Positions 10,247 through 20,164 of a stretch of 20,864 bases of DNA are shown piece by piece. A program made the translations under genes and the position numbers. How positions within the stretch are numbered: the first letter of the stretch is position 1; every line of letters starts with the position of its first letter. The notes beneath the pieces are model-generated. The model saw only the letters and a list, made by a program, of their open reading frames with translations. It did no database searches and had not been told where the DNA came from. This DNA is from a virus. The stretch spans positions 1 through 20,864 of IMG/VR virus record IMGVR_UViG_3300009684_000213; one strand, given 5' to 3'.

Positions 10247-10639
10247 TTATATTTTTGCTAAACATTCTTCAACATATTTATCAGAAGGAATATCTGCACT
10301 GATTAATGTTTTAGGAATGAACCCAATATTTTCTACTCGACTTGGCATATAAGTTAGAAATTCTAGAAAAGGCTTAAGCTCAGAATGCATATTTGTCATT
10401 TTAAAAAATAACATTCTCGTAGCAGGAAGAACACCAAATACATTATAGATGATAATGATATGGTTTAAAATTAGACGTTCTTTTAACTCACCAGTTTCTT
10501 TATAACGTTTTAAAAGTCTCTTGATATATCTAAACCTGTTTAAATCTTCAAGAAACTCTTGAGTATCAAAACATTGTGGATTATCATAATATTTTGCGGC
10601 ATATAATAAGAAATTGGTTTCGTCTAATTTTTCATTCAT
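10247..10639 (-). CDS. Conserved T4-like phage protein, function unknown (130 aa)
   Basis: ATG 10639 to TAA 10247. The ribosome site is weak (GTAAAG). The protein begins MNEKLDETNFLLYAAKYYDN, then PQCFDTQEFLEDLNRFRYIK, a basic helix (RLLKRYKETGELKERLILNH) and a hydrophobic stretch (IIIIYNVFGVLPATRMLFF). I recognise this layout as a protein commonly present beside structural genes in T4-like marine phages, annotated as hypothetical. The hydrophobic run is probably buried helices rather than a TM. Its last codons contain a late promoter for the lysis genes. Confidence 0.8.
   Translation of the reverse strand: MNEKLDETNFLLYAAKYYDNPQCFDTQEFLEDLNRFRYIKRLLKRYKETGELKERLILNHIIIIYNVFGVLPATRMLFFKMTNMHSELKPFLEFLTYMPSRVENIGFIPKTLISADIPSDKYVEECLAKI
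10275..10282 (-). promoter_or_regulatory. T4-type late promoter (GATAAATA) for lysis cluster
   Basis: GATAAATA on the minus strand, 40 bases before ATG 10235 and inside the end of the 130-aa gene. The octamer is identical to the one at 14173-14180. Expected start is near 10269, giving a leader of about 35 nt. Confidence 0.65.
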
Positions 10640-10715: not shown

Positions 10716-11627
10716 TTAGGTATTAGCGAATACGGTATTTTCTGAGTCAACAGTTGTGTCCATGCTACGAATATAAGCAATATTTTCATATTGAACACGA
10801 TTAGCACGACCACCCAATGTTCTTGTAGTAAAGGTTGAACTTAATACTGCTCCAGTGTTTCCACTTGTAGTCAAGTTAGCAGTAAATGTTGCGCCAGAAC
10901 CACCAGTAGCACCACCAGTTGCATTGGTAACAGCAACAACAGCAGAAGCATTAGCAGCAGTGTTTGAAAACAATCCACGATTTGTGAAAGTGAAGGTTAG
11001 TGTGCCACCAGTTGCATTTGTTGAAACTGAAGCAGTAGCATTAGAAATACCATTAGAAACAGTAAAGATATCAGTATTGTTATATCCAGTTGCAGTACCA
11101 GAAACAACAATTAAATTTACTCTCTTTTGACGAGCAAAGGCAAGTGAAACAGCAGCGGCATTAGTAAAGCCAGAGCCACCGTTTGTTACGGAAAAACTTA
11201 CGATGTTTGATGTGGCGTTAGTAGTTATGGTAGCTGAACCATTTGAAGTTCCTCCACTGATTACAACTGTTTCGCCGTTGGAAAAGCTAGTAGTATTAAA
11301 AGTAGCATTACTAGTACCAATAGTAAGCCCTGTAACTGGTCCAGTTCCAAATCTTACGTTAACCCAACCAGGAGAAACTCCTTTACCCTTCACGCCAGCT
11401 TGTTGTGTTTCATTGGTTGTTACACCAAATGTACCAATAGCAGACAATGATTGGAATGCACCAACAGTTGTATTGTTGAACGATGTTATTGCACTAGGCA
11501 TAGCAACACTAGTTGTTGTAGCAACGTTACCAGCTCCAGTTATATTCTTCTTTGCAACTCGGTCTGACGTAACAGTCGTAGACTTAGGTGCGTTATTTTG
11601 ATAGTCTGAATTACCCCATAAGGCCAT
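10716..11627 (-). CDS. Virion structural protein, MALWGN family (303 aa)
   Basis: The N-terminus MALWGNSDYQNNAPK and the C-terminal block LGGRANRVQYENIAYIRSMD match a structural-protein family I recognise from T4-like cyano- and alphaproteobacterial phages, where it is a virion component of unknown place. Between them lies a Thr/Asn/Ser/Gly-rich beta-type region with two related units, about residues 111-164 and 181-235 (ATITTNATSNIVSFSVTNGG versus ASVSTNATGGTLTFTFTN). No cysteines or signal peptide are present. It starts at ATG 11627 with GGAG upstream, behind an AATAAATA late site, and is followed by a hairpin. The repeats look like a surface-exposed beta domain inserted between conserved ends. 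Confidence 0.85.
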   Translation of the reverse strand: MALWGNSDYQNNAPKSTTVTSDRVAKKNITGAGNVATTTSVAMPSAITSFNNTTVGAFQSLSAIGTFGVTTNETQQAGVKGKGVSPGWVNVRFGTGPVTGLTIGTSNATFNTTSFSNGETVVISGGTSNGSATITTNATSNIVSFSVTNGGSGFTNAAAVSLAFARQKRVNLIVVSGTATGYNNTDIFTVSNGISNATASVSTNATGGTLTFTFTNRGLFSNTAANASAVVAVTNATGGATGGSGATFTANLTTSGNTGAVLSSTFTTRTLGGRANRVQYENIAYIRSMDTTVDSENTVFANT

Positions 11628-11835: not shown

Positions 11836-13089
11836 TTATTCTTTTTCTTGTGACTTTGCGTTCTTTTGGAAAGCAGCGATCTTAGCTTCTTGACGAAGAT
11901 CACGATTGGTAGCCATAATTTCCATGATTGAACGCTCAACTGCCTTATTACGGCTGACAAGAGTATCTGGAGTTACCCGTTGTGTTTCTTCCTTACGAAG
12001 CTTCTTGAAATCTTCAGCATCGATCTTATTAGGATCACCAGCAAGCTTTGCAATTTTCATTTGCTTAGGTGAAAGTTTCTTTTCTTCGCAAGAAGCGCAC
12101 TCTTCTTCGAATTCAATCCCACCTTTGGTAAGATTTTTAACAGCTCTTCCAATACCTATTGAGCGTTGTGCGTGTTTTCTATTTAAAGCGTTTCTATCTT
12201 CACGATCTCTAGGTGTTGTGCCTGTAGTTGCGGCTTTTTGATTAATCTTACCAATGCCATGAGCAAGAGCACTTTTACTTGCACTGGCGCTACCAATATA
12301 ATCACCATAAGTTTTGCTTGACAACTCATCAACCTGTTCGGCTTCTTTTTCAACTTCTGGCTTTTTCTTCTTGCCTGTTGGAGTATATCGAGCTGCATAA
12401 GCTTGACGACTTTTTTCGCCACCAGCTAACTTTTCTTCGAGTTCAACTTCTTCATTCTTAGCAGTATGAAGAGCAGGACCACCGCCTTGACCTTCTTTCT
12501 TAGCCTTTTCATATTCAGCCTTACGCTGATATGCTGGCTTATCTAAATTTTTACCCATCCAAGGTGCTTTATCTTCTGATACTTTATTTGCGTGATAATT
12601 AGCAGTAATTGTAGCATCTTTTTTATCATCGCCATGATATGAAACTGGACCTTCGCCCATATGCTTGCCCTTGGGATCATAATGGTGAACTTGATATTCA
12701 TTATAATCTTTACTATAACGAACTTCATGACGACGACCGTCTTTACCTGTATGCGTAGAAACTAAACGAGTACCTGCAATTGGACTAGGTTTACGCTCTT
12801 CACCAAGTTCAACTTCTTCCTTACGAAGAATCTTTCTACCCTGTTGTAGCTTACCTTTTACATAAGCTCTTCCGCCATCAGAACCAATTCTAGCAAAAGC
12901 TTTTTCAAGTTCTGGATTTCCAAAATTATTTTTCTGGATACCAAGTTTAGTAGTAGCAATATTCTTCTTCAACTTATTTTCTCTTTTAGCCATACCTTCT
13001 TCAAGATCGACGCCAGAATACTTGGCTTCAAAATCTTCGGCGGTCATGGTTTCGATATCGTGTTCTAGTTCTTCTTCTGAAAATGACAT
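11836..13089 (-). CDS. Large charged head-precursor-like protein (417 aa)
   Basis: A highly charged, Lys/Glu-rich, low-hydrophobic protein. It carries repeated acidic motifs: EEVELGE (residues 91-97), EEVELEE (213-219), EQVDELSSKT (251-260) and IEFEEE (325-330), plus VDLEEG near residue 27. Similar EEVEL/VDELS phrases occur in prohead and virion precursor proteins of T4-like marine phages. L-x-E and F-x-E match the cleavage rule of the T4 gp21 prohead protease, so this may be a processed internal head protein or scaffold. A CASC pair (331-334) precedes a Lys-rich helix (KLSPKQMKIAKLAGDPNKI). The start ATG 13089 has AAAGGA upstream and a CATAAATA late site before it. Function is inferred from composition and context. 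Confidence 0.75.
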   Translation of the reverse strand: MSFSEEELEHDIETMTAEDFEAKYSGVDLEEGMAKRENKLKKNIATTKLGIQKNNFGNPELEKAFARIGSDGGRAYVKGKLQQGRKILRKEEVELGEERKPSPIAGTRLVSTHTGKDGRRHEVRYSKDYNEYQVHHYDPKGKHMGEGPVSYHGDDKKDATITANYHANKVSEDKAPWMGKNLDKPAYQRKAEYEKAKKEGQGGGPALHTAKNEEVELEEKLAGGEKSRQAYAARYTPTGKKKKPEVEKEAEQVDELSSKTYGDYIGSASASKSALAHGIGKINQKAATTGTTPRDREDRNALNRKHAQRSIGIGRAVKNLTKGGIEFEEECASCEEKKLSPKQMKIAKLAGDPNKIDAEDFKKLRKEETQRVTPDTLVSRNKAVERSIMEIMATNRDLRQEAKIAAFQKNAKSQEKE

Positions 13090-13118: not shown

Positions 13119-13126
13119 TATTTATG
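13119..13126 (-). promoter_or_regulatory. T4-type late promoter (CATAAATA)
   Basis: CATAAATA on the minus strand, 29 bases before ATG 13089. It overlaps the stop codon of dps. Expected start is near 13113. Confidence 0.7.
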
Positions 13127-13562
13127 ATTTCTTGGAGGTGGCTCTGAGCATCCAACCATGCTTCTTATGGGTGTCTGTTCTGTCTTGTAGGAAGTTTGAT
13201 AGACCAATTTCGTTGGCATCATTAGCAGCTTCATATGCTTCTTTTAGTGTATTAAGTACAATTTCATTATCTGCCAACAATCTTGAAAACATTGATCGGG
13301 CATCTGGAACAGTAGTAGCGTCTTCGATGTTTGTTAGTTCTGAGAAACGAGAAAATGAGCCAGGAGAATATTCATCCAAGGCACGAATGTGTTCTGCGAT
13401 AGCATCTGTGGCTGACCAAAGCTCATTATATAATCCATCAAAGAATGAATGGTACTGAGGAAAGTCTGCGCCTTCTACATTCCAATGATAGTTATGAGTT
13501 TTAAGATACATAGCAAAAGTATCAGCTAAAACAACTTTTAATTTATCTGCAACCACTGACAT
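13122..13562 (-). CDS. dps: Dps-family ferritin-like DNA-protection protein
   Basis: A 146-aa member of the Dps/ferritin superfamily, which forms 12-mer shells that oxidise and store iron and guard DNA from Fenton damage. The signature is complete: HNYHWNVEG places H26, and H38, D42, D53 and E57 (YHSFFDG, TDAIAEHI) fall at exactly the spacing of E. coli Dps H51, H63, D67, D78 and E82. An active inter-subunit ferroxidase centre is therefore expected. The Lys-rich DNA-binding N-tail of E. coli Dps is absent, but the C-terminus is basic (THKKHGW...ATSKKS). ATG 13562 has AGGAG. It is downstream of a GATAAATA late promoter, between two virion-type genes, so it is made with the capsid. Confidence 0.92.
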   Translation of the reverse strand: MSVVADKLKVVLADTFAMYLKTHNYHWNVEGADFPQYHSFFDGLYNELWSATDAIAEHIRALDEYSPGSFSRFSELTNIEDATTVPDARSMFSRLLADNEIVLNTLKEAYEAANDANEIGLSNFLQDRTDTHKKHGWMLRATSKKS

Positions 13563-13571
13563 TATATTCTC

Positions 13572-14144
13572 CTACTTAATTTCTGTTTTTTTAGCAAGTT
13601 TACGAGCAATTCTTTTTTTCGCTACTTCTGGATTTGGTTCTTTTGGAGGAGCTTTTAGGTCTTCGTATTCCCTGTCGCTAAATCCAAGAACCCTCTCTAA
13701 TGCAAAAATTTGTTTAATTCTTTTCATGGCTCTTCTTCTCTTTAATTGAGTTTCGTCACCATCAAGATCGTCCATGCCAATATCAACACCAAACTTACTT
13801 TTACCTAATGCGCTATCAGTTGGAGTAGGAATAACTGCCTCAGTTACTCTAGCAACATGTTCTTCAGCGCCACGACGAGTAGTGAAAATAGTAGGCTGAC
13901 CAATAGGTTTACCAGACTTACTATGCTTACGAACAGCATAACGAGTTTTTTCGCTACCAGGATTTGTTTCGGTAATTCTATGTTCTTCTTCTATATTCGT
14001 CTTACTTCTGGCAAAAACTTTATTGATTACGGATTCCATCGGATTGATGATAATCTCATCGGGTTCTTGTCCAGACGCAGTTCTTACGATTTGACCAGAA
14101 GCTTCAAATCTACCTTTAATAATATCCGAAAATTTCTTAGCCAT
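13572..14144 (-). CDS. Basic late protein, probably virion-related (190 aa)
   Basis: ATG 14144 with GAGG upstream, ending 9 nt before dps. The N-terminus (MAKKFSDIIKGRFEASG) is basic and the centre is charged (KTRYAVRKHSKSGKPIGQP, then TTRRGAEEHVARVTEA). The C-terminus is Lys/Arg-rich (EVAKKRIARKLAKKTEIK), which suggests DNA or RNA contact. IEEEHRITETN and AVIPTPTDSALGKSK look like flexible linkers. The overall feel matches phage internal head or structural precursor proteins. It begins a late transcription unit at GATAAATA and is co-transcribed with dps. No specific family is recognised. Confidence 0.75.
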   Translation of the reverse strand: MAKKFSDIIKGRFEASGQIVRTASGQEPDEIIINPMESVINKVFARSKTNIEEEHRITETNPGSEKTRYAVRKHSKSGKPIGQPTIFTTRRGAEEHVARVTEAVIPTPTDSALGKSKFGVDIGMDDLDGDETQLKRRRAMKRIKQIFALERVLGFSDREYEDLKAPPKEPNPEVAKKRIARKLAKKTEIK

Positions 14145-14172: not shown

Positions 14173-14180
14173 TATTTATC
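14173..14180 (-). promoter_or_regulatory. T4-type late promoter (GATAAATA)
   Basis: GATAAATA on the minus strand in the non-coding gap, 28 bases before ATG 14144 and 17 bases after a strong terminator. Expected start is near 14167. It opens the late region. Confidence 0.8.
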
Positions 14181-14226: not shown

Positions 14227-14772
14227 TTAAATCCACCAATAAGGAATATCTCGCTTAGTGTATTTTTTTAAATGTGATTTGCCTTTAACATAATAATTCC
14301 TATAATTAATCATCGGATCATCAGAGATGATGTATTCTTTATCCATACACGATGGCATTGGTGTCATATCCCAATCATTTAGATTGAATGGTGGGGATTG
14401 GATTAGATACCCAAGCTTAGCCATAGTAGCATGGCGCTTATTATAACGATGGGTATACTCATCACTAAGAGCAAACAAATGATCAACCAACCAATTATAG
14501 TTGCTAATGGATTGCCTTGCCCAGATAGCAGAAGGATGATTAATATGAGTAGCACTATAAAGAATGTCATTACGTCCGTCTCCTAGAATCCACACCGTTT
14601 TCTTACGGCGCTTGCCATCTTTTTCTAAAGTAACTTCTATAGGCGCACCATCAAGCACACGGTGTGCAGTTGACAATAGTTGTGCGGACTCTAGGATCAT
14701 CTTAACAACGTGCCTATCTACCATCGATTGAGCAGATTGTACGGGACATTCGTCTAACATAAAAATATTCAT
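14227..14772 (-). CDS. Conserved phage protein, possible nucleic-acid enzyme (181 aa)
   Basis: ATG 14772 overlaps the deaminase stop as ATGA. An in-frame TTG at 14778 is less likely. The N-terminus MNIFMLDECPVQSAQSM leads into DRHVVKMILESAQLLSTAHR, then NHPSAIWARQSISNYNWLVD, EYTHRYNKRH and a C-terminus YRNYYVKGKSHLKKY...PYWW. I recognise this as a phage-wide family (D-x-H-V-V-K-M, N-H-P-x-x-x-W-x-R). It is sometimes labelled as a pyrimidine-dimer glycosylase relative, but I see no clear likeness to T4 DenV and leave the function open. The many conserved His, Asp and Arg residues suggest an enzyme. A terminator follows directly. Confidence 0.8.
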   Translation of the reverse strand: MNIFMLDECPVQSAQSMVDRHVVKMILESAQLLSTAHRVLDGAPIEVTLEKDGKRRKKTVWILGDGRNDILYSATHINHPSAIWARQSISNYNWLVDHLFALSDEYTHRYNKRHATMAKLGYLIQSPPFNLNDWDMTPMPSCMDKEYIISDDPMINYRNYYVKGKSHLKKYTKRDIPYWWI

Positions 14773-15179
14773 AACCAATTATATCCATCATCTGTTGTGT
14801 AACACACATGTTTAATATTAAAGGTGGCAATAGCTTTTTGGCATCCTGCACACGGCTTAGACAATCCCCACTGAAGGGTACGCCCAAACTCATTATCATA
14901 CTTTACTCTGCAAATGTAAAGCTTTGATTTTGCAATTGTCGCAATATCATGCTTTTTTAATGCATTTTTTATAGCATCAGTCTCAGCGTGAAGATAGATA
15001 GAATCTTCGTTAGAAGAATATTGACGTTGAAATGGATGTGACTTCATTTGATTTACACCAAACGAAAGTATCTCATTTCTATGTACAACAGCAGCAGCAA
15101 GCCTTCCTCTAAATTCAACAGGAACTGTTTCTGCCATGACCTGTAATATGTTTAGAATTTTTAAATGCGGATCACGCAT
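14769..15179 (-). CDS. Second cytidine/dCMP deaminase-fold protein (136 aa)
   Basis: Zinc-dependent deaminase fold. H64-A-E66 (LHAETDAI) gives one zinc ligand and the proton-shuttle Glu. P109-C110-x-x-C113 (KPCAGCQ) gives the other two ligands. The core begins RLAAAVVHRNEILSFGVN. KSHPFQRQYS before the HAE motif is typical of a phage-encoded group distinct from classical dCMP deaminases. The substrate is not evident; it may act on dCMP, cytidine, a modified base or RNA. It is less similar to the dCMP deaminase at 5670 than the shared motifs suggest, so it is not a recent duplicate. It overlaps the following gene by 4 nt. Confidence 0.85.
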   Translation of the reverse strand: MRDPHLKILNILQVMAETVPVEFRGRLAAAVVHRNEILSFGVNQMKSHPFQRQYSSNEDSIYLHAETDAIKNALKKHDIATIAKSKLYICRVKYDNEFGRTLQWGLSKPCAGCQKAIATFNIKHVCYTTDDGYNWL

Positions 15180-19675: not shown

Positions 19676-20107
19676 TTAATCTTGGATAAAGGTTTTCTTC
19701 TTATCTTTTTTGGAATTGATCGGAATAGATTCTTCCTTTGCCTTATCTGTGGCATAGGAAATAAGAATCTTCAAGATACCATCTTCCAAAGTAACATCGT
19801 CTACGATACTATTATCTGGAACGACAAAAGAAACTGCATAATGGTTTTTATTGATACCACGATATACATACGGACGTTCGCCAGCATCGGAACGCTTCGC
19901 ATGAATAGACACACGGTTGTCCTTCTTAGACACATCGATGTCTTCTTCTGTAAATCCAGGAAGAGCAATCTCGATAATATGTCCATTGTCCGCAAGAGAA
20001 GACTTACGAATAATATTATAATAAGGAATATGTGTCAAATCAGAATTAAGGTTTGCAGTTAGCTTCATCAATTCTTCATACTGATTAAAAAAAGTCTTAA
20101 GCATCAT
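19676..20107 (-). CDS. Small heat-shock protein (Hsp20/alpha-crystallin)
   Basis: ATP-independent holdase chaperone. Using ATG 20107 (143 aa; GGAG lies 6 nt upstream, whereas an upstream ATG at 20119 has no site), the alpha-crystallin domain runs from about residue 30 to 123. It includes IIEIALPGFTEEDIDVSKKD, RPYVYRGINKNHYAVSFVVP and the conserved LEDGILKI near the C-terminus. The short C-terminal tail contains I-P-I, the I-x-I motif used for oligomer assembly. Hsp20 genes are frequent in T4-like cyanophages and relatives, where they may aid capsid assembly or host stress tolerance. It has its own promoter and the following transcription unit starts right after its stop. Confidence 0.93.
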   Translation of the reverse strand: MMLKTFFNQYEELMKLTANLNSDLTHIPYYNIIRKSSLADNGHIIEIALPGFTEEDIDVSKKDNRVSIHAKRSDAGERPYVYRGINKNHYAVSFVVPDNSIVDDVTLEDGILKILISYATDKAKEESIPINSKKDKKKTFIQD

Positions 20108-20164
20108 GTGTTTCTCCATTTAAGCAAGATATATTAAAGCGTCCCACATTGGCAACGCCAAGCA

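Follow-up and report, generated by a model that had tools for sequence, protein, structure and literature searches.

A gene encoding a true Dps protein lies at 13122-13562 on the minus strand of the viral DNA analyzed here, which comprises the whole of IMG/VR record IMGVR_UViG_3300009684_000213 (20,864 bases; the window). The window derives from a T4-type phage, as it has genes that match those for ribonucleotide reductase-type proteins, primase, and DnaB-like helicase. The product is a miniferritin of 146 amino acids, and on balance we consider it probable that this protein is made late in infection and clears Fe(II) and peroxide while heads are assembled and DNA is packaged, which would give it a protective role. 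This reading is the best explanation because of the fold and iron site, the late context of the gene, the link of its relatives to head genes, and purifying selection. Phage Dps proteins have so far been read as products of general stress-tolerance genes; the repeated association with genes for terminase, portal, and prohead protease described below points to the packaging step, and perhaps to the virion interior. Such a link would provide a concrete source of iron in phage particles and would explain why a phage controls Fenton chemistry while naked DNA is threaded into the head. Part of this idea can be tested in an isolated phage, S-SRM01.

Identity and Predicted Structure of the Window Dps

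The dps open reading frame has an ATG start and an AGGAG Shine-Dalgarno-like sequence. Its product matched the Pfam Ferritin family (PF00210; E 7.7e-27, residues 6-142, cut-off passed) and phrog_3636 among the PHROG families (7.4e-36), and the PDB sequences retrieved were Dps chains, the best being Pseudomonas aeruginosa PA0962 (1.9e-29). An AlphaFold model with a pLDDT of 93.3 contains helices at residues 3-28, 34-61, 70-76, 88-115, and 119-144, which form a four-helix bundle with a short BC helix. When this model was searched with Foldseek, the top match was 8ff9, the P. aeruginosa Dps PA0962 (rmsd 0.9 Å, TM 0.93), and the top matches listed were Dps-family proteins throughout. Pfam, PHROG, PDB, predicted fold, and ligands thus agree with the initial annotation, which had described the product as a Dps with a complete ferroxidase site. 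As a member of this family, the protein is expected to assemble into a 12-subunit cage, and its sequence predicts that it oxidizes Fe(II), both the catalysis and the choice of oxidant being deduced from its relatives.

The Ferroxidase Site and Iron Pore

The proposed iron ligands H26, H38, D42, D53, and E57 had been noted to reproduce the spacing of E. coli Dps, and the residues are indeed as described, with gaps of 12, 4, 11, and 4; D42 would be a second-shell or water-mediated ligand, W27 lies beside the iron site, and Y45 is a further conserved residue. Conservation was assessed in 64 dereplicated viral relatives and 52 bacterial copies. H26, H38, D53, E57, W27, and Y45 are invariant in 64/64 viral relatives, and the ligand spacing is therefore not a matter of chance; H26, H38, D53, and E57 are also unchanged in all 52 bacterial copies.

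Position 42 is less telling than had been claimed, being Asp in only 17/64 viral copies and Gly in 27/64, while the bacterial copies have Glu or Met. As a diagnostic ligand it was ruled out, since it varies widely and is no ligand in PA0962, where the di-iron site is formed by two His residues from one subunit and an Asp and a Glu from the other (PMC10002758). The His-type enzyme NpDps4 of Nostoc is active with Asn at the equivalent position (PMC6675082), which shows that an enzyme may be active without a ligand at this position, 67 in the E. coli numbering. The site of the window protein is therefore complete, but not owing to D42. A His-type ferroxidase has His at E. coli position 78; the window Dps keeps Asp there (D53), as do 64/64 viral copies, and therefore does not belong to that class.

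At the iron pore, the pair corresponding to D134/Q138 of PA0962 is N123/D127 in 44/64 viral copies, D123/G127 in 11/64, and N123/E127 in 7/64, so that an acidic residue is kept at 123 or 127 in 62/64. In most phage Dps proteins, the acidic pore residue is shifted by one helical turn relative to bacterial Dps. In one terminase-linked type, Gly42 is paired with His49 in most copies; this His would point to the dimer interface from the same side of the helix, making it a candidate replacement ligand, although we do not claim it as one. The N-termini of terminase-linked copies show a small overlap with a prohead-protease-like LxE motif, which is absent from the window Dps.

Genomic Neighborhood and Predicted Late Expression

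Directly upstream of dps is a gene for a 190-amino-acid protein of unknown function (13572-14144, minus strand), which shows weak similarity (E 1.7e-7) to a single member of a neighbor family, c1. The dps start lies 9 bases past the stop of this gene. A T4-late-promoter-like motif, GATAAATA, is located at 14173-14180 on the minus strand, 36 bases before the same gene, so that dps would come second in a unit instead of having a promoter of its own. We propose GATAAATA as the putative promoter of this two-gene unit, from which dps would probably be co-transcribed with its upstream neighbor. The initial annotation was thus right that a late-type motif is present, but it precedes the 13572-14144 gene and not dps itself. 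Another element, CATAAATA, is found at 13119-13126 on the minus strand, inside the 3' end of dps and upstream of the next gene, which starts at 13089. The core ATAAATA occurs in the window no more often than chance would give (7 found vs. 9.3 expected), although all seven occurrences are on the coding strand.

The significance of the motif became clearer in related loci, which were scanned for BATAAATA within 60 bases of gene starts. It was found upstream of gp13-like genes in 11/35 cases, sheath genes in 13/29, c1 genes in 30/97, and c10 genes in 13/35, compared with ~1.0 to 1.4 expected for each. Enrichment before known late genes in related loci validates BATAAATA as a late signal of these phages, as judged from sequence. 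No BATAAATA was found in these loci before primase, TerS, TerL, gp14, tube, or portal genes; that TerS, TerL, tube, and portal genes lack it would fit an arrangement in multi-gene operons with gp13 and sheath as the first genes. The dps genes of several relatives, including that of the cyanophage isolate S-SRM01, have their own TATAAATA at -28. Late expression of dps, as originally suggested, is supported by the late-type motif at -36 of the preceding gene and by the enrichment of this motif before the late genes of relatives, and the timing in the window phage is predicted on these grounds.

The same annotation had placed dps between structural-type genes, and this was not borne out. Neither of the two flanking genes matched a structural family in PHROG; direct homologues of the two were found in no isolate, and in IMG/VR they occurred only on contigs of the same phage. 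The downstream neighbor (11836-13089, minus strand) encodes a Glu/Lys-rich protein of 417 amino acids that matches phrog_5709 and phrog_7884, both of unknown function, and has relatives in cluster c6, whose genes come after dps in phages of the window type. Farther downstream are a gene for a 303-amino-acid protein of cluster c10 (10716-11627, minus strand), homologues of which are encoded downstream of dps in phages of this type and also, in one case, in Caulobacter phage Cr30, and a gene for a DUF7207 protein (phrog_407; 10247-10639, minus strand), a conserved marker that was used for sampling the window-type neighborhood.

Close upstream of dps is a Pyr_excise-like gene (14227-14778; PF03013, E 5.5e-7; phrog_624), and similar genes accompany dps in roughly a dozen related loci; it is possible, from its sequence, that this is a second DNA-protection gene. 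The window also contains an Hsp20-type small heat shock gene (19676-20119; PF00011). The gene at 1630-2052 carries the PHROG label 'NAD synthetase', yet also matches homing endonuclease families.

Association of dps With Head and Packaging Genes in Relatives

A Dps protecting packaged or replicating phage DNA had been described as unusual. In terms of frequency this is incorrect, for a loosely set scan of IMG/VR yielded at least 552 confirmed relatives, and phage Dps had been reported before (PMC8008677; PMC6669764). Gene location was surveyed in 129 viral loci, consisting of 128 IMG/VR contigs and S-SRM01, among the matches listed. Two locations dominate these loci, one found in 71 (type A) and the other, that of the window itself, in 49 (type B). 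The 14 long contigs carry one dps each (14/14).

In type A loci, dps is near TerS or TerL and nearly always directly between them. A representative order by PHROG assignment (locus L176) is gp13, gp14, sheath stabilizer (gp15), TerS, dps, TerL, sheath, tube, and portal. When TerL was used as the query, 70 loci had enough upstream sequence to be scored, and dps was adjacent in 57, a proportion that applies to the kin of the query, one large T4-like group, because the query was taken from a dps-bearing phage. In four others a gap of ~590 bases separates dps from TerL, and in nine TerS and TerL lie side by side without dps, which is therefore dispensable. In most of 42 distinct junctions, the dps stop is a few bases from the TerL start. 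The gene preceding dps has a Lys/Arg/Ala-rich, histone-H1-like end in several loci (L168, L170, L172, L174, L179, L194, L201, L204, L205), and S-SRM01 has an annotated 'histone H1' near dps.

In type B loci, the c6, c10, and DUF7207 genes lie downstream of dps. When DUF7207 was used for a scan, dps was found ≤8 kb upstream in 51 of the 61 loci that could be scored, the other 10 having the full flank without dps; 19 more loci were short of flank. A phrog_1645-like 'virion structural protein' gene is within eight genes of dps in 18/49 type B loci. The type B order of c10, primase, thymidylate synthase, and ribonucleotide reductase recurs in Caulobacter phage Cr30, in which no Dps was found.

The association with head genes extends to a third arrangement and to gene fusions. 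A Dps open reading frame directly follows a phrog_776 portal gene in 10 loci (L386, L387, L389, L399, L431, L440, L449, L450, L460, L462). Dps either stands alone there or makes up the N-terminal domain of a longer protein, which bears DUF5824 in four loci (L387, L440, L450, L460); in L389 the portal, Dps, and DUF5824 proteins are encoded by three separate adjoining genes. A Foldseek search of viral models (BFVD) revealed Dps folds within entries named 'Prohead protease', and a DNA pattern scan followed by open reading frame analysis located corresponding fusions. In L405, a single 754-amino-acid reading frame (303-2567) following TerL and portal genes encodes a Ferritin domain (residues 315-454) and a Peptidase_S78 prohead protease domain (526-677); in L465 (3031-4656), Ferritin occupies residues 103-241 and Peptidase_S78 residues 312-466, and the major head protein gene is next. 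Proteases of the S78 type act inside the procapsid. The fused Dps domains retain the H, H, D, and E ligands, and twelve apparent ligand exceptions among unfused copies proved to be one-residue insertions. A short motif family, phrog_9737, is common to the fusion partners and to dps neighbors in type B phages (L163, L435). The original suggestion that Dps acts during packaging thus gains from the relatives, in which dps lies between terS and terL, follows portal, or is fused to prohead protease, while the flanking genes of the window itself match no structural family.

Phylogeny and Selection

A tree of 63 viral and 26 bacterial Dps rows, from which S-SRM01 (a long branch) and further phage lineages were absent, separated the viral proteins from the sampled nearest bacterial Dps on one branch with support of 100/100, as expected if they form a clade of their own. 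The terminase-linked copies fall in two groups. Two independent insertions of dps between TerS and TerL were considered and not adopted, since a single origin was not rejected by the AU test (p 0.342). On a TerL tree (loci L218-L304), loci with either of the two dps types and loci with an empty slot are intermingled, and the dps cassette between terS and terL has therefore been exchanged and lost. The gene is under purifying selection, with dN/dS of 0.03-0.25 in ten pairs; one more pair was saturated.

Protective and Alternative Roles

According to the role that we favor, Dps would be produced from a late T4-type transcript while heads assemble and fill. Paired inter-subunit iron sites, each comprising H26 and H38 of one subunit and D53 and E57 of the other, would oxidize Fe(II). 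The oxidant would probably be hydrogen peroxide, which PA0962 uses, and the product, ferric iron, would be stored inside the Dps cage. By using up Fe(II) and peroxide, Dps would spare the packaging machine, and phage DNA that is incoming or still unpackaged, from attack by hydroxyl radicals. Against this proposal stand the window flanking genes, which are not known to be structural, the nine TerL loci without dps, and the location of dps elsewhere in Grimontviridae and Lactobacillus phages, which also speaks against a strict role in the head. In the Grimontviridae phages SE131 and BUCT695, dps is among replication genes; their locations and that in Lactobacillus phages indicate that Dps is not always the product of a late gene.

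A closer tie to the head is conceivable, and we entertain it tentatively: Dps may be a structural passenger that is built into the procapsid and retained in the virion, where it would store iron beside the DNA or bring ferroxidase to the next host. The prohead protease fusions in L405 and L465 make a location inside the virion plausible, if short of an even chance, and the position of dps after portal and between terminase genes and the BFVD 'prohead protease' entries with a Dps fold point the same way. Nevertheless, the fusions come from phages of another lineage than the window, whose Dps has no identified targeting peptide, and gene order can reflect expression timing alone; a late cytosolic pool of Dps explains the window equally well. 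A broader version, also to be regarded as speculative, is that tailed phages have several times recruited the Dps cage into the head-assembly and packaging machinery, with the cage becoming part of the procapsid; many environmental virions would then contain an iron-mineralizing compartment beside their DNA. At the opposite end, dps may be an auxiliary gene of general use, whose product renders iron and peroxide harmless in infected cells and has no special tie to the head, its site being a recombination hot spot in late operons. This would account for the interleaving on the TerL tree, in which the slot is swapped and emptied, and for the replication-gene setting in Grimontviridae, and it resembles published readings (PMC6669764; PMC8008677). 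It also fits the response to phage YerA41, infection by which raises host dps and catalase (PMC7354516), so that iron and peroxide matter to infected cells generally. We nonetheless regard this explanation as rather unlikely, for recurrent head and packaging loci in three architectures, together with fusion to a head protease, exceed what a random slot would produce.

Two further activities involve DNA directly. Condensation of phage or host DNA by a nucleoid-type protein is suggested by the family name, by the PHROG label 'DNA binding protein' for phrog_3636, and by a C-terminal tail that is small and basic (TSKKS; viral copies have ~2 K/R), although the label is itself carried over from the family name. 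The basic N-terminal tail of E. coli-type DNA-binding Dps is lacking: the first helix begins at residue 3 in the AlphaFold model, the sequence before the aligned core has a median of 7 residues and 0.4 K/R in viral copies vs. 16 and 1.9 in bacteria, and the pI of the window protein is 5.1. Binding of the E. coli kind by such a tail is therefore unlikely, as judged from sequence and model, which renders doubtful the earlier suggestion of DNA protection insofar as it would depend on DNA binding, and makes a condensing role improbable. Finally, the nearest solved relative, PA0962, is reported to cut DNA in vitro (PMC10002758), and a similar activity might aid host DNA breakdown; we consider this highly improbable, because late expression would be too late for degrading host DNA, and there is no known conserved nuclease site by which to test it.

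Comparison With Known Dps Proteins

That phages encode Dps is itself established (PMC8008677; PMC6669764; S-SRM01 annotation). Bacteroidetes gut phages ('Gratiaviridae' and others) carry Dps, which was proposed to raise oxidative stress tolerance; these phages infect anaerobes and are not T4-like, and the available text of that source reports no linkage to terminase, portal, or protease (PMC8008677). A literature search that left subscription papers and preprints outside its range found no report of Dps with terminase, portal, prohead protease, or virion proteomics, which is weak evidence of novelty. In Lactobacillus plantarum myophages, Dps is encoded near DNA-metabolism genes (PMC6669764). 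These proteins and those of the Grimontviridae podophages (Salmonella SE131, Aeromonas BUCT695) belong to the same phage Dps family and are encoded away from head genes, the Grimontviridae proteins being 29-32% identical to the window Dps. The cyanophage S-SRM01 (MW015081) is an isolated T4-like phage with an annotated Dps and its own late-type motif; this Dps is 34.5% identical to that of the window, with a very long branch and different neighbors.

The closest solved structure is that of PA0962 (PDB 8ff9 series; PMC10002758), which is 38% identical to the window Dps. H37, H49, D64, and E68 of PA0962 correspond to H26, H38, D53, and E57, and the two proteins share the conserved Trp and Tyr residues at 19 and 45. 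Unlike PA0962, the window Dps is without the 8-residue N-terminal coil and part of the Tyr network, having Phe at 16, 70, and 73, and the pore pair D134/Q138 is represented by N123/D127 in most viral copies.
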